The position numbers were made by a program, and so were the translations under genes. A stretch of 64,000 bases of DNA from Gammaproteobacteria bacterium (lineage in GTDB: Bacteria > Pseudomonadota > Gammaproteobacteria > Xanthomonadales > SZUA-36): assembly GCA_021772915.1 (NCBI GenBank), contig JAJFLB010000053.1, positions 124,001-188,000 on the forward strand. The letters run 5' to 3'. Below the pieces are notes generated by a model. It had not been told where the DNA came from. It saw only the letters and a list, made by a program, of their open reading frames with translations, and ran no database searches. This document shows positions 15,461-25,266 of the stretch, in pieces (the first letter of the stretch is position 1; each line of letters begins with the position of its first letter).

Positions 15461-15537
15461 TGGTCGGGGTGGCGAGATTCGAACTCACGACCCCCACGTC
15501 CCGAACGTGGTGCTCTACCAGGCTGAGCTACACCCCG
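15461..15537 (-). tRNA. tRNA-Pro (anticodon CGG)
   Basis: A 77-base cloverleaf on the minus strand. The acceptor CGGGGTG pairs with CACCCCG, followed by A73 and an encoded CCA. The anticodon stem CCACG/CGTGG encloses TTCGGGA with anticodon CGG (15501-15503), and the T-arm reads GAGTTCGAATCTC. It lies alone between the response regulator and the ppnN leader and is transcribed in the opposite direction to both. Confidence 0.96.
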
Positions 15538-15729
15538 ACAAGGCGCGTATTTTAACCAAGCAGGCAATTCAATGGTAGTGCCGCACACCCGTGGCACGCC
15601 AGAGTAAACAGAACTTGTCCACAACTGCCGGTGGCTTTGCGTGACCATACCCATGCACCCGCGAGTGCTGCCTGCACTCGTATCTGTTTCAATGGACTTG
15701 TCAATTGTCAAGATTTTATAGGGAATCCT

Positions 15730-15738
15730 TGCTACAAT
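15730..15738 (+). promoter_or_regulatory. Extended -10 promoter of the ppnN leader / small RNA
   Basis: TGCTACAAT is an extended -10 element (TGn plus TACAAT). No good -35 lies at 17 bases, as is usual for extended -10 promoters. A start near 15745 would place three hairpins in the transcript. The same TGCTACAAT string precedes the TonB receptor gene at 20466. Confidence 0.5.
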
Positions 15739-15744
15739 TCCGGC

Positions 15745-15957
15745 GGTCATCCAGCGTCTGCTTGGAGTTTTTGGTATTAATGCAGACTGGGCGACTTGAG
15801 GTTTAGTTGCTTGAGCCAATAATCGACCCGGTGGTCATAAACGGGTCGGTTGGTCTCCGGGCAAGTGAAGAGATCTTGTATTGAGTACGGGGTCTGACCA
15901 GTTTTGAATTGGGGGAGTGACCGGGAGGCCAGCTTGATGCTGGCCTCTCTCTTTTCT
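15745..15957 (+). ncRNA. Candidate small RNA or attenuator leader upstream of ppnN
   Basis: The 487-base gap between tRNA-Pro and ppnN holds three successive stem-loops and no gene. Hairpin 1 is 15751-15790 (GTCTGC/GCAGAC core extended by CCA/TGG). Hairpin 2 is CGACCCG/CGGGTCG (15824-15848, 11-base loop). Hairpin 3 is a nine-base GAGGCCAGC/GCTGGCCTC stem with TTGAT loop (15925-15947) followed by TCTCTTTTC. With the extended -10 upstream this makes a transcript of about 210 bases ending at a terminator 57 bases before the ppnN ribosome site. I do not recognise it as 6S RNA, SRP RNA, tmRNA, RNase P RNA or a known riboswitch. Confidence 0.45.
15925..15957 (+). terminator. Rho-independent terminator upstream of ppnN
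   Basis: A perfect nine-base stem GAGGCCAGC/GCTGGCCTC with a five-base loop is followed by TCTCTTTTC. It is upstream of, not after, a protein gene, so it either ends a small RNA or attenuates ppnN. Confidence 0.65.
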
Positions 15958-16024: not shown

Positions 16025-17395
16025 TTGTCAACTGATGCCATAACTGCCCGAATTTATCCGGCCGGAATACTAACCACACTGAGTCGTCTGGAGGTTGAAC
16101 GTTTGCATGACGCCAGTCGTGGGGAGTTGGGTGGGTTGTTGCGTCGTTGCGCTCTGGCTGTCCTCAACAGTGGAAATGACGGAGACGATGCAGAAGCACT
16201 GTTACAACGATTTGAGGACTTCGATATAGAGGTACAGCAAGTCAATCGCGGAATCCGTTTGCAGTTGAGAAACGCACCCGGGTCGGCGTTTGTCGACGGT
16301 GTAATGGTGCAGGGGATTCGTGAATTGCTGTCGGCGGTTATTCGTGACCTGGTTTATTTTGATACGGAGATCAGTGGTAATCCGGCAACCGATCTGGAAA
16401 GTCAGAGTGGAATCACCAATGCGGTTTTTGAGATTCTCCGCAACGCACACACCATCGACCCGGCACGGGAGCCAGACCTCGTGGTGTTCTGGGGCGGGCA
16501 CTCGATCGAAAGACTGGAATACGACTACACCAAGAAAGTGGGCTACGAGACCGGTCTGCGTAAACTCAACATTTGCACCGGCTGCGGCCCGGGTGCCATG
16601 AAGGGGCCAATGAAAGGGGCAGCGATAGCTCATGCCAAGCAGCGTGTTACCAATGGTTGCTATATCGGTATTTCTGAGCCAGGCATTATCGCAGCTGAGT
16701 CACCCAACCCCATTGTTAATCAGCTGGTTATCATGCCCGACATCGAGAAACGTCTGGAAGCATTCGTGCGTTTGGGACATGGCTTCGTGGTTTTCCCGGG
16801 TGGTGTAGGTACAGCCGAGGAAATTCTTTTTTTGCTGGGGGTTCTGTTAAACCCCGCAAATGACGACATGCCAGTGCCGATGGTATTAACGGGTCCTGCT
16901 GAGTCAGCCGATTATTTTGAGCAGATTGACGCGTTTATCGGGCTGACGCTGGGTAAAGAGGCGCAGGATAAGTATCAAATCATTATCAATGATGCCGAAT
17001 CTGTCGCCCAGGTCATGGCATCAGGATTGTTACAGATCAGGTCCTACCGGAAAAAGCAAAAAGACGCTTATTATTTTAACTGGCAAATACAGATACAGAA
17101 GGAATTCCAGCAACCGTTTGATCCAAATCATGAGAGCATGGCAGCGCTGCAACTGCACCGTGATTTGCCGAAGCATGTTCTGGCGGCTAATTTGCGTCGG
17201 GCGTTTTCAGGTATTGTCGCCGGTAATGTCAAACCTGAAACGCTCAAGACGGTGCGTGAAAAAGGTCTTTTCGAGATCAATGGGGAAAAAGAAATCATGC
17301 AGGCACTGGACAAGATGTTAGCTTCGTTTGTGGAGCAGGGTCGCATGAAATTGCCCGGTCCAGTATATATTCCCTGTTACAGGGTGGTGTCCTAA
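16025..17395 (+). CDS. ppnN: Nucleotide 5'-monophosphate nucleosidase PpnN (YgdH family)
   Basis: PpnN splits nucleoside monophosphates into base and ribose 5-phosphate and is stimulated by ppGpp in E. coli. The 456-residue protein has the family length, with the N-terminal DUF4478-type region, a central LOG/lysine-decarboxylase-like Rossmann domain with GGHS and the signature PGGVGTAEE, and the C-terminal DUF3412-type part. The start is TTG at 16025 with AGGAG at 16014-16018, six bases upstream; no ATG fits. A structured leader with a terminator lies upstream, so expression may be attenuated. Confidence 0.92.
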   Translation: MSTDAITARIYPAGILTTLSRLEVERLHDASRGELGGLLRRCALAVLNSGNDGDDAEALLQRFEDFDIEVQQVNRGIRLQLRNAPGSAFVDGVMVQGIRELLSAVIRDLVYFDTEISGNPATDLESQSGITNAVFEILRNAHTIDPAREPDLVVFWGGHSIERLEYDYTKKVGYETGLRKLNICTGCGPGAMKGPMKGAAIAHAKQRVTNGCYIGISEPGIIAAESPNPIVNQLVIMPDIEKRLEAFVRLGHGFVVFPGGVGTAEEILFLLGVLLNPANDDMPVPMVLTGPAESADYFEQIDAFIGLTLGKEAQDKYQIIINDAESVAQVMASGLLQIRSYRKKQKDAYYFNWQIQIQKEFQQPFDPNHESMAALQLHRDLPKHVLAANLRRAFSGIVAGNVKPETLKTVREKGLFEINGEKEIMQALDKMLASFVEQGRMKLPGPVYIPCYRVVS

Positions 17396-18316: not shown

Positions 18317-20164
18317 ATGAAAAGGAAGATGTTCATGCCTGAAGTCAACAAAAGCTGGTCAATACTGGTTTTGCCACTTGCGCTGTTTGCCTGTAACCCA
18401 ACCGCTGAGGTAAATACACCCACTGTTGACAACAATCCGACGGCCAAAGCGGCGGTTGAATTTGTGGCCCAGGCCGAAGAGCGGTTGTCAAGATCCGGGC
18501 AGGAAGCTGAACGCATGGCCTGGGTTTATAGCAATTTTATTACCGCTGATACGGAAATGCTTGCGGCCATGGCCAACGAGAAGCATACCGCGGCTCAGGT
18601 GGAATTGGCTGTTGGCGCGGCCCGTTTTAATCACGTTCGTGGGCTCGACGATAATACCCGGCGGAAACTCGGAATGTTGCGTAGCGGAATCGTTATGCCG
18701 GCACCCAGTGATGCTGTGAAAACAGCGGAACAATCCGAAATTGGTGCAAAAATGAGCGGTATGTACGGCAAGGGTGAGTACTGTTATGCCGACGGCGATT
18801 GCCTCGACCTGGGTCGTCTGAGTGACATCATGGCAGAATCACGCGACCCGGCTGCCTTGCTTGAAGCTTGGAACGGCTGGCGTACAACTGCACCCCCGTT
18901 GAAGTCGCTTTACAGCCGCCAGGTCGAACTCGCCAATGAAGGGGCTGCAGAGCTGGGGTTTCCGGACCTCGGTGCCATGTGGCGCTCATCCTACGATATG
19001 CCCCCGGAAGATTTTCCGGGTGAGCTTGATCGGTTGTGGGATGAAGTAAAGCCACTGTATGACGCCCTGCATTGCCATGTGCGTGCCAGGTTGGGGGAGC
19101 AGTACGGCACTGATCTGGTTCCCCAGAATGGACTGATTCCAGCCCACCTGTTGGGCAATATGTGGGCTCAGGACTGGAGTAATATCTACCCATTGGTCGC
19201 GCCTGAAGAGACGGTGTCTGCTTATGACCTGAGTGCGATTTTGAGGGAACGTGGCTTTGATGCCATTGACATGGTGAAGGCGGGCGAGATCTTTTTCAGT
19301 TCACTGGGATTTGAGAAATTGCCGAAGACGTTCTGGGAACGCTCGCTGTTTGTCAAGCCGGAAGACCGTGATGTTGTTTGCCATGCCTCGGCCTGGGACG
19401 TGGATGAAAATGAAGATTTGCGTATTAAGATGTGCATCAAGGTCAACGCGGAGGACTTCAAGACCATTCACCACGAACTGGGTCACAACTACTACCAACG
19501 TGCCTATAACCAGGAGAGTTATCTTTACCGTACCAGCGCCAATGATGGTTTTCATGAGGCGGTGGGTGACACCATAGCGCTGTCAATCACACCTGAGTAT
19601 TTACAGCAAATTGGTTTGCTTGAAAATGTTCCCGATGCTTCCGGTGATCTAGAATTATTGATGAAGCGGGCACTTGAGGGTGTCGCCTTTCTGCCCTTTG
19701 GCTTACTGGTCGACCAGTGGCGCTGGAAGGTTTTTGCTGGAGAAACAAGCCCTGGAGGATATAACGAACTGTGGTGGCAATTGCGTGAGAAATACCAGGG
19801 TGTAACAGCACCCAACGAGCGACCCCCGGATGCATTTGATCCAGGTGCCAAATACCATGTGCCGGCCAATACGCCCTACACACGATATTTTCTGGCGCGT
19901 ATCCTGCAATTCCAGTTTCATCGTTCCCTGTGTGAAATTGCAGGTGACGAGGGCCCGGTTCATCGCTGCTCGATTTACGGCAGTCAGCAGGCCGGTCAAC
20001 GTCTGAACGCCATGCTGGAAATGGGGCGGCGTGAGCCGTGGCCGGAGGAACTGGAAGCCCTGACGGGGCAGCGTGAGATGGACGCTACCGCCATTCTGGA
20101 CTATTTTGCACCGCTTAAAACCTGGCTGGATGAGCAAAACCAGGGACGTCAGTGCGGTTGGTAG
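18317..20164 (+). CDS. Peptidyl-dipeptidase A (ACE-like M2 metallopeptidase), lipoprotein
   Basis: A bacterial homologue of angiotensin-converting enzyme that removes C-terminal dipeptides. The 615-residue product carries a lipoprotein signal with lipobox LFAC, so it is probably membrane-anchored in the periplasm. The zinc site is complete: HHELGHNYY (HExxH) and the third ligand Glu in NDGFHEAVGD. Further ACE-typical blocks are WDEVKPLYDALHCHVR and MWAQDW. I chose the ATG at 18317 for its basic n-region; the ATG at 18335 has a better ribosome site (AGGAAG). The 3' end is partly duplicated at 24161-24271, beyond the TonB receptor. Confidence 0.92.
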   Translation: MKRKMFMPEVNKSWSILVLPLALFACNPTAEVNTPTVDNNPTAKAAVEFVAQAEERLSRSGQEAERMAWVYSNFITADTEMLAAMANEKHTAAQVELAVGAARFNHVRGLDDNTRRKLGMLRSGIVMPAPSDAVKTAEQSEIGAKMSGMYGKGEYCYADGDCLDLGRLSDIMAESRDPAALLEAWNGWRTTAPPLKSLYSRQVELANEGAAELGFPDLGAMWRSSYDMPPEDFPGELDRLWDEVKPLYDALHCHVRARLGEQYGTDLVPQNGLIPAHLLGNMWAQDWSNIYPLVAPEETVSAYDLSAILRERGFDAIDMVKAGEIFFSSLGFEKLPKTFWERSLFVKPEDRDVVCHASAWDVDENEDLRIKMCIKVNAEDFKTIHHELGHNYYQRAYNQESYLYRTSANDGFHEAVGDTIALSITPEYLQQIGLLENVPDASGDLELLMKRALEGVAFLPFGLLVDQWRWKVFAGETSPGGYNELWWQLREKYQGVTAPNERPPDAFDPGAKYHVPANTPYTRYFLARILQFQFHRSLCEIAGDEGPVHRCSIYGSQQAGQRLNAMLEMGRREPWPEELEALTGQREMDATAILDYFAPLKTWLDEQNQGRQCGW

Positions 20165-20312
20165 TGCCATCGGTCGTGTAGGACCGACGAGCTTGCTCGT
20201 CGGGAATTGACATCGGCGGGTCTAACCGGCCCTTACTGGGCATTTTGTGTGGTCTTAAGGGTTCCCGACGAGCAAAGCTCGTCAGTCCTACGGGCGATTA
20301 GCGCATAAAGTT
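19969..20312. repeat. Left copy of duplicated ACE-3'/REP/psd-3' junction
   Basis: This segment contains the last 64 codons of the ACE-like gene, a REP-type doublet, and a short stretch matching the psd 3' end (on the minus strand it reads ATLCANRP then stop, compared with ATLCVDLP in psd). The same order recurs at 24160-24422. The similarity ends abruptly near 20312. Confidence 0.85.
20178..20291. repeat. REP-like doublet, copy 1
   Basis: The element starts GTAGGACCGACGAGC and ends with the complement. Each end is a tight hairpin (CCGACGAGC-TT-GCTCGTCGG at 20184-20203; CGACGAGC-AAA-GCTCGTC at 20266-20283), in inverted orientation around a spacer of about 60 bases. It follows the ACE-like stop codon and may also terminate transcription. 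The copy at 24285-24400 is clearly related but diverged. Confidence 0.85.
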
Positions 20313-20465
20313 GCCCACCCCTGGCAAGGGCGCAAATGCTATGGGAGGCCATGATTCAATGGCAGGCGGCTTAATCTGGAATGTACAAATTTTGAGGCAA
20401 AGTGGGACGCAAATTAGTCCTCACGACAAACACGTGAATTTTGTTAAGAATTCGTAAATAATCTC

Positions 20466-20474
20466 TGCTACAAT
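20466..20474 (+). promoter_or_regulatory. Extended -10 promoter of the TonB-dependent receptor gene
   Basis: TGCTACAAT lies in an AT-rich stretch about 195 bases before the receptor start codon. A TTGTTA lies too far upstream (22-base spacer) to be a standard -35. The leader of roughly 190 bases holds no other gene. Confidence 0.45.
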
Positions 20475-20668: not shown

Positions 20669-23600
20669 ATGAAGACAAAACCCTCTATTTGGCTTGTAGG
20701 TCTTTCCTTGGTCCTGATGCTTGGTGTCAGTACCGCCACAATTGCTCAGGAAACAACGGGAACTGTTCGTGGCACTGTACAAGCGCCTGACGGTGCGCCA
20801 GTTGCAGGTGCGATGGTTGCAGTTGAGGATACACGTACCGGTACGACGCGAACGGTGACCACCAACAACCGGGGAGTATTCAATGTTCGTGGCCTTATGA
20901 TTGGAGGTCCTTACGAGATCCGTGTCAGTTCAAGCACTTACATGGTTGCCTTGATTCAGGGGGTGTATACCCAGCTGTCTGAGGCTACCACCTTCAATAT
21001 CCCACTGGTGGCCGGTGCAATTGAGGAGGTCATTGTTACCGCATCGTCTCAGGTTTCGGGAATGGATCTCGCGGTTGGGCCGGGTACGGCATTTTCCACC
21101 GCAGATATTGAAGCGATGCCCAGCATTGCCCGCCAGATCCGCGACGTGGTCCGTATCGATCCGCGTGTCAGTCTGGGCCGGGCGGCCAATGGCGCTGGTT
21201 CAGGCATCAATTGTCTGGGTGGCTCTTCACGTTCAAACGCCTTTACAATCGACGGCACACTGGCGATCGACGGCTTTGGATTAAACGAGGGAACCGGTAC
21301 GTCGGCGCGTTTTGCGTTTCCGATTCCGTTCGACACGGTAGAGTCCGCGTCGGTGGAATTTGCGCCGCTCGATGTCCAGTACAGCCAGTTCACGGGTTGT
21401 GCTGTCAACGTCGTGACCAAGCCGGGTTCGAACGAATTCCACGGCTCCGCGTTTTATTTTTTTAACGACGACAGCATTACCGGTGATTCAGTTCGCGGCA
21501 GGACTGTCATCACCGATCCTTTCGAGGATACTGACTTCGGCTTCGATTTCAGCGGCCCGATCATCAAGGACAAGCTGTTCTTCACGGTGTCTTATGAAGA
21601 GACTGATGAGGGCGGTATTCAGAGCACGGGTCCCATCGGCGCCGGGTTCGCAAACGAGGACACCCTTACCGTTGAGCAAGCGAACGAGATTGGGGGCATC
21701 CTGAATTCACAATACAACCGTGATGTTGGGGAAATCGTCAGAGTTCTGCCGCAAAGCAGTGAGCGGTGGTTTGGACGGTTGGACTGGAACATCAACGACA
21801 GCCATCGTGCCGAGCTGACCTATACCCAACTGGACGAGCTAAACCTGGATCCGGACGATCTGGGTTTTGGCGGTTTTACCTTCCGGGACAATTTTGAGTT
21901 TGAGGGCATTGACCAGGATACAATTTCAGCTCGTCTGTTTTCGAACTGGTCTGATACCTTCTCCACCGAGCTGCGCTATTCCAAAATCGATGTAGTCGAC
22001 ATTCAGGGGCCGGCGGGGGGCGGTGAAGCACAGGACGCCACGCCGATTCCCCGAATCGAGGTTGAAGACGGCTCGGGGGGTACACTCTTAACCAGTGGTC
22101 CGGGTTTCTTCCGTTCCGCAAACGATCTGCAGTATCAAATAGAGCAGATAAAGCTTTCCGCGGACTGGGTCGTGGGTGACCACACCCTGACCTTCGGGTT
22201 CGAGCAGGAGAGCCGCGATATTTTCAACCTGTTTATTCCCGATGCTACTGGAACTATTGTATTTGATAATGTTGATGACTTGAGGGCCGGTATTGCGAGC
22301 AGCTTCGTCATGAATGGTTCGTTTACGCAGGACCCAAAAGACGCTGCCGCCGCGTTCACGCGGGACATCGACAGTTATTACTTGCAGGATGAGTGGTCGG
22401 TCAACGATGCTATTACGGTAATCCTGGGGCTTCGCTATGACGAGTATTCGTCTAATGTCGACCCGATATTTAATCCTGTATTCCAGGCACGTTATGGGAT
22501 TACAAACACGCAGACCTTCAATGGTCTGGACCTGATCCAGCCGCGAATCGGCCTGACCTGGGATCTGCCTGAGCTGAGCTGGGGCGAAGCCCAACTCAGA
22601 GTGGGGTATGGCGTCTTTGGTGGCGGTGACCCGACCGTTCATTTTGCCAATGCCTACCAGAACTTTGGTGGTGCAATCGGATTTGGAGGAAGCTTCAACG
22701 CGCCTTGTACCCCTGCAGACCTGCAGGTTACGGATGGCAGCGGGCAATTCACGGGCCTTCCCGATTGTGTACGTGTTGCAGCAGCCAACAGCGCCAACGC
22801 AAATACGGGCGCGGTCGCGGCAGTGGACCCCGATTTCGATCTACCTTCGAACCATCGTTATAACCTGGGTTTAAATCTTTTCACCCATGCTGAAAACAGT
22901 TTTTTGGATGCATGGGAGATCCAGTTTGACTACATCTACACGGATCTCAAAGATCGTCCTTACTGGTTTGACCTGAGGTTGACACCCAATGGTAATACCA
23001 TGCCGGACGGGCGGCCTCAATTCTTTGAGGTTGATCCCTTGCAGCCGGGCTGTAATGCAACATTCAACGGCATCGGCCAGGGTTTCAGCAATGCCGGCAC
23101 GAATGGCGGACCGTGTGATGACGTACGCAATTCAAATCAGGACACCCTGATGACGAACGGCCCCGATGGCTCGACACACTCAATATCTGTCCAGTTCTCA
23201 AAGATGTTCGCATTTAGCGACAGAACCTCGCTTAATCTGGGCATCGGTTACGCCTGGCTGGACGCGGAATATGCCAGTCCGATCAACAGCTCGACTGCTG
23301 GCTCAAGCTACGAGGAGGTCGCTGTGAGTCAGTTGGGCCAGCCCCTGAACGGGCCGGGTTTATGGGCAAATGAGCATAATATAGTGCTCCGGGCACGCTT
23401 CGAGCACGAGTGGAGCGACGGCTACCCCTTCTCTGTCTCAGTATTTTTCCAGGCACGATCCGGGCGCCCGTTTAGCTACACCTATGAAGACGACACTGTC
23501 GAAGATTTCTTCGGTGACTCGGACGATGAAGAACGCATCCTGATTCACGTGCCCACCGGGCCCAGTGATCCCTTGTACGACTTCTCGAATTTGTCTGCCA

Positions 23601-24007
23601 GTGAGATTACCGGTCTATTCGCTTTTCTGGATAGTTCGGGCCTGAGTGAATACGCGGGTGGCATTGCGCCGAAGAATGGATTCACCGGTCCCTGGAATAC
23701 GGATATGGACATCCGCTTCCAACAGGATATTCGACTGCCCTGGGGCTGGGGTGGGGAGCACCACAACCTGAGTGTCACTTTTGACATCGAAAACGCACTG
23801 AACCTTTTCTTTGGCGACGACGCCAACGTGTTTGATTACACTGATACCGGCGACATCGAGGAAGGCGTCCGGGTTCTGGAAGTCGGACGCGCCGGCCTGG
23901 GTAATACCGATCAGTTCGTTATAACCCGCTGGTACGACGAAGGCATTGACCAGGATGTCGACGATTCCGTGTGGCGCCTGCAATTGGGCGTTCGCTACGA
24001 GTTCTGA
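20669..24007 (+). CDS. TonB-dependent outer-membrane receptor with carboxypeptidase-like N-terminal domain
   Basis: A 1,112-residue outer-membrane transporter. It has a signal peptide (residues 1-27, ending TATIAQ), a CarboxypepD_reg-type beta domain (about 30-120; TVRGTVQAPDGAPVAGA), a TonB-box-like EEVIVTAS, a plug domain (about 135-270), a large beta-barrel, and a C-terminal LQLGVRYEF ending in Phe as expected for Bam-dependent insertion. This Oar-like architecture suggests uptake of peptides or glycans, not a classical siderophore receptor; the substrate is unknown. The ATG at 20669 has CGGAG seven bases upstream. It lies inside a duplicated chromosomal junction, next to a periplasmic dipeptidase. 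Confidence 0.93.
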   Translation: MKTKPSIWLVGLSLVLMLGVSTATIAQETTGTVRGTVQAPDGAPVAGAMVAVEDTRTGTTRTVTTNNRGVFNVRGLMIGGPYEIRVSSSTYMVALIQGVYTQLSEATTFNIPLVAGAIEEVIVTASSQVSGMDLAVGPGTAFSTADIEAMPSIARQIRDVVRIDPRVSLGRAANGAGSGINCLGGSSRSNAFTIDGTLAIDGFGLNEGTGTSARFAFPIPFDTVESASVEFAPLDVQYSQFTGCAVNVVTKPGSNEFHGSAFYFFNDDSITGDSVRGRTVITDPFEDTDFGFDFSGPIIKDKLFFTVSYEETDEGGIQSTGPIGAGFANEDTLTVEQANEIGGILNSQYNRDVGEIVRVLPQSSERWFGRLDWNINDSHRAELTYTQLDELNLDPDDLGFGGFTFRDNFEFEGIDQDTISARLFSNWSDTFSTELRYSKIDVVDIQGPAGGGEAQDATPIPRIEVEDGSGGTLLTSGPGFFRSANDLQYQIEQIKLSADWVVGDHTLTFGFEQESRDIFNLFIPDATGTIVFDNVDDLRAGIASSFVMNGSFTQDPKDAAAAFTRDIDSYYLQDEWSVNDAITVILGLRYDEYSSNVDPIFNPVFQARYGITNTQTFNGLDLIQPRIGLTWDLPELSWGEAQLRVGYGVFGGGDPTVHFANAYQNFGGAIGFGGSFNAPCTPADLQVTDGSGQFTGLPDCVRVAAANSANANTGAVAAVDPDFDLPSNHRYNLGLNLFTHAENSFLDAWEIQFDYIYTDLKDRPYWFDLRLTPNGNTMPDGRPQFFEVDPLQPGCNATFNGIGQGFSNAGTNGGPCDDVRNSNQDTLMTNGPDGSTHSISVQFSKMFAFSDRTSLNLGIGYAWLDAEYASPINSSTAGSSYEEVAVSQLGQPLNGPGLWANEHNIVLRARFEHEWSDGYPFSVSVFFQARSGRPFSYTYEDDTVEDFFGDSDDEERILIHVPTGPSDPLYDFSNLSASEITGLFAFLDSSGLSEYAGGIAPKNGFTGPWNTDMDIRFQQDIRLPWGWGGEHHNLSVTFDIENALNLFFGDDANVFDYTDTGDIEEGVRVLEVGRAGLGNTDQFVITRWYDEGIDQDVDDSVWRLQLGVRYEF

Positions 24008-24147: not shown

Positions 24148-24160
24148 ATTTCTTTAGTGC

Positions 24161-24271
24161 TCGATGTACCGCAGCCAGCTTGCCCGTCAACGTTTGAACG
24201 CCATGCTGGAAATGGGGCGGCGTGGGCCGTGGGCGGATGCGCAAAATCAGGGACGTCAGTGCGGTTGGTAA
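24161..24271 (+). pseudogene. 3' remnant of an ACE-like peptidase gene
   Basis: Thirty-six codons plus stop match the C-terminus of the ACE-like lipoprotein (shared blocks QRLNAMLEMGRR and QNQGRQCGW). The frame is kept, but 28 codons between two Trp codons are missing. There is no start, promoter or ribosome site. It lies just after the terminator of the receptor gene. Confidence 0.85.
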
Positions 24272-24284
24272 TGACCATGGTCGT

Positions 24285-24400
24285 GTAGGACCGACGAGCA
24301 AGGCTCGTCGGGAATGGCCATCGGGTGGGTCTAATCGGCCCATGCTGGTGTTTTGTACGAGTTTTAAGGGTTCCCGACGAGCTTTGCTCGTCGGTCCTAC
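24285..24400. repeat. REP-like doublet, copy 2
   Basis: Same structure as the copy at 20178-20291: two CGACGAGC hairpins facing each other, bounded by GTAGGACC and GGTCCTAC. Its right end supplies the psd stop codon (CTA on the plus strand at 24397-24399), so psd terminates inside the repeat. Confidence 0.85.
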
Positions 24401-25266
24401 GGGAGATCAACGCATAAGGTTGCGAGGGCTTGACCGACTTTTACTGCATCGTCAGTTTTCACCTCTGCCTGCGCTTCTACGCTTCCCGAAGGCAACAGCA
24501 AGATTACGGTTGAGCCCATGTTAAAGCGACCCATTTCTGCGCCTTTTAATAGTGAGATGCCCTGGTTAGAATAATCCGTAATCTTAATGGTTTTGCGCTT
24601 GCTGGGTGCGAGCTCACCGGCCCAAACGGTTTCAATACTGGAAACCAGCATCGCACCGACAAGAACCATCACCATCGGACCCTGGGCGGTTTCAAATATA
24701 CTGATCACGCGTTCATTGCGGGCGAAAAGGCGTGGAACCTGACGGACCGTGTAGGGCGCGACGGAAAACAATCTTCCCGGCACGTGGAGCATGCGTTGCA
24801 ACTCACCTGTCAGCGGCATGTGAACGCGGTGATAATCTCTCGGTGAAAGGTAGATGGTGGCAAAAAAGCCATCCGCCAACCGACTGCAAACAGGATCGTT
24901 GGCTAACAGTTCCCGGACCAGGTAGTGCCTGTCTTTGGCCTGCAGGATACGCCCGTGTTGTAGACCGCCGGTTTCGCTGATGGTGCCATCACAGGGACAC
25001 AACAAGGTCGTCGGAGAGGTGTCGAACGGCCTCGCTGCTGGAATGAGTTCACGTGTGAACCAGGCATTGAAACTTGCGTAGTCAGCCACATCCGCGGAAA
25101 GTGCCTCAGCGCGGTTGATCCCGGCCAGGCGGCTTATCAGTCGTATCAGGAAGTTCTTGACCGAAATGTATTCGCAGTGCGTCAGGTTGTAAACGATACG
25201 CGACAGCAAGTGCTGAGGCAGAATGTACTGCAACCCAGCCACTAGCTTCTCAATAACTGTCTTCAT
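24397..25266 (-). CDS. psd: Phosphatidylserine decarboxylase proenzyme
   Basis: This inner-membrane enzyme makes phosphatidylethanolamine from phosphatidylserine. The 289-residue proenzyme contains the PSD domain with DGTISE, the conserved YLSPRDYHRVHMP, and near the C-terminus the self-cleavage site, which reads MGST rather than the usual LGST (FNMGSTVIL); the Gly-Ser cut and pyruvoyl-forming Ser are kept. The stop codon falls inside a REP doublet, so the last residues (VDLP) derive from or abut the repeat. It is divergent from prmB. Confidence 0.95.
   Translation of the reverse strand: MKTVIEKLVAGLQYILPQHLLSRIVYNLTHCEYISVKNFLIRLISRLAGINRAEALSADVADYASFNAWFTRELIPAARPFDTSPTTLLCPCDGTISETGGLQHGRILQAKDRHYLVRELLANDPVCSRLADGFFATIYLSPRDYHRVHMPLTGELQRMLHVPGRLFSVAPYTVRQVPRLFARNERVISIFETAQGPMVMVLVGAMLVSSIETVWAGELAPSKRKTIKITDYSNQGISLLKGAEMGRFNMGSTVILLLPSGSVEAQAEVKTDDAVKVGQALATLCVDLP

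Follow-up and report, generated by a model that had tools for sequence, protein, structure and literature searches.

An apparently new structured RNA upstream of ppnN is very probably an emptied TonB-dependent receptor transcription unit

The segment at positions 15730-15957 of the window (the whole 64,000-nt stretch of DNA analysed here) is very probably an emptied transcription unit of a TonB-dependent receptor (TBDR) before ppnN, and mainly a record of gene loss. It most likely has the appearance of a new small RNA because its promoter and terminator are leftover signals of a TBDR gene. Such a gene would once have stood between tRNA-Pro and ppnN, and the promoter, the first bases of the leader and the terminator would derive from it, possibly together with its last codons and stop. 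The sequence of events was probably a segmental duplication followed by the loss of one TBDR copy, with a related TBDR persisting 5 kb downstream. The promoter probably still yields a non-coding RNA of ~210 nt (~15745 to 15957) that would end at the old receptor terminator, which in turn would keep this transcription out of ppnN. As read from sequence, this interpretation draws on a shared promoter and terminator, a missing gene, a relocated relative, and terminators before ppnN that track the TBDR. Nothing on this locus was seen in abstracts on ppnN with small RNAs or TonB-dependent receptors, or in passages of PMC12175321.

Gene order at ppnN in the genus, the family and beyond

The upstream border of the site is a tRNA gene on the reverse strand (15464..15537; Rfam RF00005, 64.4 bits), which shares 97-100% identity with tRNA genes of four relatives that are assigned to tRNA-Pro (CGG) by ARAGORN. 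Downstream lies ppnN (16025..17395, forward strand), which encodes a nucleotide 5'-monophosphate nucleosidase (NCBIfam NF038390, 714.7 bits, cut-off 450). No genome with the whole segment was found by blastn amongst 60 relatives. The terminator part was matched in six genus-mates and the promoter part also in two of these, G001 and G007, to which a more sensitive search of extracted stretches added G004 and G005. In G007, the two parts share a strand and flank, at a distance of 3.5 kb from each other, a 1117-aa ORF with CarboxypepD_reg and TonB-receptor barrel domains. The same order of promoter, TBDR and terminator is found over ~3.4 kb in G004 and G005 and, spread over two contigs, in G001. 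The contig of G003 starts inside the receptor, so its promoter side is not covered, and the terminator element is present.

Eight of the ten genus genomes contain ppnN. A TBDR ending just before ppnN, together with the same terminator element, is found in five of them (G001, G003, G004, G005 and G007), and the same promoter precedes the TBDR in the four genus-mates whose contigs reach that far. In the window, the TBDR gene is missing between the tRNA gene and ppnN. G006 also carries the promoter and the terminator without a receptor, with fewer than 200 nt between them, and thus contains the second emptied unit in the genus. Neither promoter nor terminator was found before ppnN in G002, and no ppnN was found in G008 or G009. 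Between tRNA-Pro and the emptied promoter of G006 there is a gene for an M56 peptidase with a TonB C-terminal domain (L014, 6065-8500), preceded by a small ORF that, judged by eye only, may encode a BlaI-type regulator. The best TBDR matches in G006 (L151 and L153) are partial and mostly contain stop codons, and this genome possibly has no intact copy of the TBDR.

For the wider comparison, a terminator was defined as at least six uninterrupted pairs, at least four of them G-C, with a T-rich tail, within 350 nt for the family and 300 nt for named loci. ppnN was found in 30 of 39 family genomes, 29 of which were usable after a fragment in G015 had been dropped. In 24 of the 29, a TBDR with the orientation of ppnN ends 68-222 nt before it, and the intervening gap contains a terminator in 22 of these 24. 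The exceptions by the rule are G033 and G017, the latter of which matches a covariance model of the terminator (E 0.005). The TBDR is divergent in G022 and G025, which have no terminator before ppnN, and both TBDR and terminator are absent before ppnN in G002. A terminator does precede ppnN in the two relics, the window genome (G000) and G006. With the relics excluded, 22/24 versus 0/3 corresponds to a Fisher p of 0.003, a value that ignores the relatedness of the genomes. Named loci were taken as the best 80 of 122 ppnN loci; five are genus-mates and were set aside, leaving 75. Terminators were detected at 6/6 of those with an adjacent TBDR and at 6/69 of those where none was found (p 5e-6), some of the loci ending early enough upstream for an adjacent TBDR to be missed. 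As the terminator before ppnN tracks the TBDR in both the family and the named loci, it goes with the receptor and not with ppnN. Outside the genus, and besides the 24 family genomes, a TBDR immediately precedes ppnN, in the same orientation, at six named loci (L054, L058, L060, L063, L067 and L092).

Promoter, terminator and possible traces of a receptor gene

An earlier note on this DNA had described an extended -10 promoter here. The extended -10 TGCTACAAT is indeed present at 15730-15738, and a good -35 is absent at the usual spacing. A consensus promoter scan reported one promoter at 15796-15823, and the extended -10 was not among its output. Preceded by a TTGTCAAG block, TGCTACAAT forms a TBDR-type promoter (15705..15738, forward strand) by pattern match and alignment. 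The pattern was built from the promoters of relatives, with up to three mismatches allowed, and gave seven matches in six of the ten genus genomes, compared with none for the reversed pattern used as a control. Five matches, with 0 mismatches each, are upstream of TBDR ORFs (G001, G004, G005, G007 and site B of the window), and the other two, with three mismatches each and therefore at the limit, are at the emptied units, namely site A of the window (before ppnN) and G006. The site A promoter has 24-29 of 33 bases in common with the six other copies. Site A and the TBDR genes of relatives thus share a promoter. A further terminator-like hairpin is found just 5' of the promoter (15661-15681, forward strand).

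The predicted transcript start and leader occupy 15739..15801 (forward strand). In the alignment, GGTCATC (15745-15751) is in register with the GATCAT of TBDR leaders and the remainder has diverged; G-TCAT is invariant in 6/6 sequences (the window and five relatives), and the similarity of 15738-15810 as a whole to relatives is no higher than that of shuffles. When the leaders of relatives were searched against Rfam, tRNA alone exceeded its cut-off, with Thr_leader and MIR531 each appearing twice, all below their cut-offs. The match to the threonine operon leader that lies beside tRNA-Pro in G004 (L130, 1873-1956) scores 38.1 bits against a cut-off of 55 and is probably due to chance.

The 3' end of the segment (15908..15957, forward strand), aligned across seven genomes, comprises the conserved TTGGGGGAGTGACC and an intrinsic terminator. 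The classic terminator of the earlier note proved to be a strong one at 15923-15957, with a stem at 15923-15949 of 11 pairs, 8 of them G-C, a 5-nt loop and then TCTTTTCT. A scan of the 1-kb region found three terminator-like sites, compared with 1.0 +/- 1.0 in shuffles. Within a 35-base core, the window is identical to five genus-mates, including relic G006, at 31-34 of 35 positions; G005, which carries an insert, was excluded from this comparison. Pairs that include a relic share 30-34 of the 35 bases, and receptor-bearing pairs 29-33. Since the four-fold sites of ppnN among genus-mates are 34-51% identical and thus close to saturated, such identity indicates that the 3' element is under selection, in relics and in loci with intact receptors alike. 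Two explanations would account for this selection: protection of ppnN by the terminator against transcription from a promoter still active upstream, or a small RNA at the 3' end. The covariance model also matches before ppnN in other genera, in G010 (E 5e-5) and in G017 as mentioned above, with further weak matches in G009, G035 and G061, beside no ppnN in the stretches seen, and one in G003 (C70). Site A and the TBDR genes of its relatives have a terminator in common, at the same place. The terminator loop contains an ATG, but a small peptide beginning there was rejected, as this ATG is missing in G003 and G006.

The last codons of the lost TBDR and its stop (TGA, 15895-15897) may persist at 15883..15897 (forward strand), where a stop-anchored score compares TACGGGGTCTGA with TACGAGTTCTGA. 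Anchored in this way, the window has TACGGGGTC TGA where genus receptors have, for example, TACGAGTTC TGA. To bring the Phe codons into line, one additional final codon was trimmed from G001 and G007. The score is equalled by 7 to 14 of 4247 window stops, depending on the length compared, with more than one stop available for anchoring. The stop lies 13 nt before the GGGGGAG element in the window and 13-14 nt before it in G003-G005, with a greater distance in G001 and G007. Without the anchor, alignment failed to recover the match. On this moderate evidence, 15883-15897 is a possible remnant of the receptor's C-terminal end.

A TBDR gene with its own copy of the promoter motif in front (20442..20474, forward strand; 0 mismatches to the pattern) is located 5 kb downstream of site A, at site B, behind a peptidase gene (20669..24007, forward strand). 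It is a relative of the pre-ppnN TBDR of G007 and G001: it shares 57% identity with the G007 receptor and groups with the G007 and G001 receptors in a midpoint-rooted tree, with support of 100/100. It is the only match to the G007 protein in the window genome at E 1e-10. In G002 and G009 a TBDR is likewise found behind the peptidase, but it is of the other receptor type. Beyond the site B gene, the 3' end of the peptidase gene and the inverted repeat that follows it (original 19967-20314) recur in part (24158..24423, forward strand), with identities of 88.8% (80 nt) and 84.3% (191 nt). Their presence on both flanks of the TBDR is the probable footprint of a segmental duplication.

The structured middle and alternative readings

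Folding of 15730-15957 yields -95 kcal/mol (z -4.9), with 0/200 shuffles equally good, and 15745-15915, from which the terminator is excluded, has a z of -3.1 (1/200 shuffles equally good). Amongst 150 random 171-nt pieces of the window (25 shuffles each), two had a z of -3 or below. In piecewise folding, z was -3.6 for 15800-15880 and -3.5 for the terminator part (15905-15957), but only -0.45 for 15738-15800, where 60/200 shuffles were equally good. Of the three hairpins that had been proposed, the middle one and the terminator are therefore above chance and the first is not, and the whole transcript has a branched minimum-energy fold instead of three simple hairpins.

The middle ~140 nt, between leader and terminator, thus has an unusually stable fold. 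No relative was found for its main hairpin (15802..15869, forward strand). The middle has no second copy in its own genome, where the best other match is 23 nt long (E 0.7), and no blastn match in the 60 relatives, nine genus-mates included. The earlier note had itself named unconserved hairpins as evidence against its proposal; none of the nine genus-mates yielded the middle hairpins, and the terminator element is conserved. An origin from a repeat or mobile element was rejected, given the single copy and the occurrence of GGGGTCTGACC (at most one mismatch) once in the window, which is chance level. An origin from TBDR coding or leader sequence was likewise rejected after 32 local alignments, mostly at shuffle level and none of them convincing. 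The best, with G001, reached z 2.8 (2/60 shuffles equally good), and one with the tail of G005 reached z 2.4 (1/60) and lies inside the gene, not at its end. The G006 relic showed no convincing similarity to the middle either. At gathering scores no Rfam family was found in the region, and a permissive search returned four matches far under their cut-offs (best E 0.44, 17.9 bits versus 45), which agrees with the earlier statement that no known RNA family is recognisable. 6S RNA (RF00013) has no match in the region, its sole match in the genome being at C10:256730-256917.

Some of these results count against an emptied unit. The middle matches no TBDR or leader convincingly and folds above chance, which would not be expected from plain decay; the scar match is modest, the leader as a whole is at shuffle level, and the promoter copy is at the mismatch limit. 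As no genome with the same middle was found, the loss of the TBDR is not bracketed by a close relative. The structured middle would fit a functional small RNA, either a transcript kept as a regulator after the TBDR was lost or one that was already the 3' end of the TBDR mRNA, with GGGGAGUGACC serving as its seed and the terminator forming its 3' end. Further points in its favour are the near-identity of the 3' core, including the probably single-stranded GGGAGTGACC, against saturated ppnN sites, the conservation of this core in relic pairs, which is no worse than in receptor-bearing pairs, and the presence of GGGGAGTGACC before the terminator in G010, of another genus. We nevertheless consider this reading rather unlikely, because structure is not conserved across species and the 3' element alone is kept: the middle is common neither to the other relic, G006, nor to any genus-mate; G006 folds less strikingly with its terminator (z -2.1) and has TACACT as its -10; and GGGRAGTGA occurs in 7 of 30 family loci only. 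By a related and also improbable course of events, a TBDR mRNA with a regulatory 3' end would have lost its whole coding sequence, and the lineage would have retained the promoter and 3' element as an independent small RNA gene that in this species has gained a structured body.

The earlier proposal of either a ~210-base small RNA or an attenuator of ppnN holds insofar as the signals predict a short non-coding transcript. Its second part, a nucleotide-sensing leader acting on ppnN through terminator read-through, is very unlikely, since the promoter and terminator belong to the TBDR that precedes ppnN in most relatives. The terminator is missing in the three family genomes whose TBDR is divergent, or gone without a relic, and at 63/69 named loci for which no adjacent TBDR was found; the middle is not conserved, no known RNA family matches, and no leader was found to be conserved with ppnN independently of other genes. 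What remains in favour of attenuation is that the terminator is kept in two receptor-less genomes and that the stem is only 22 nt from ppnN in G005 and G030, where ppnN may depend on read-through or on a promoter farther upstream. Pure chance, by which an ordinary intergenic gap would happen to resemble a promoter and a terminator, could draw on the shortness of the extended -10 and the lack of a good -35, but is scarcely credible given that both ends are conserved far beyond neutral expectation.

Comparison with known systems and significance

The TBDR unit before ppnN (CarboxypepD_reg PF13620 and OMP_b-brl_4 PF25183) has in common with the segment its promoter motif, its terminator element and its location between tRNA-Pro and ppnN. 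The segment differs in having no receptor coding sequence and, in its place, a structured stretch of ~140 nt with no relative found. Small RNAs derived from 3' UTRs are a class that ends at the terminator of an mRNA. The segment resembles them in its conserved, probably single-stranded stretch right before an intrinsic terminator, but its mRNA body is gone. Terminator-type attenuators and riboswitch leaders consist of a promoter, a structured RNA, a terminator and then the gene. This order is also that of the segment, whose terminator, unlike theirs, tracks the upstream TBDR and not ppnN, and which has no Rfam match and an unconserved middle.

The emptied unit illustrates that what looks like a novel structured RNA may turn out to be the empty shell left by a gene, and that this becomes apparent only when gene orders are compared. 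Should this shell still be transcribed and under selection, it would provide a natural test of how the ends of protein genes give rise to small RNA genes, and if a small RNA was indeed born here, it would be a natural example of such a gene produced by removal of the surrounding protein gene. In the survey, most genomes of a single family, and some loci beyond it, also have a TBDR before ppnN, and a functional link between the TBDR and the nucleotide nucleosidase PpnN is possible.
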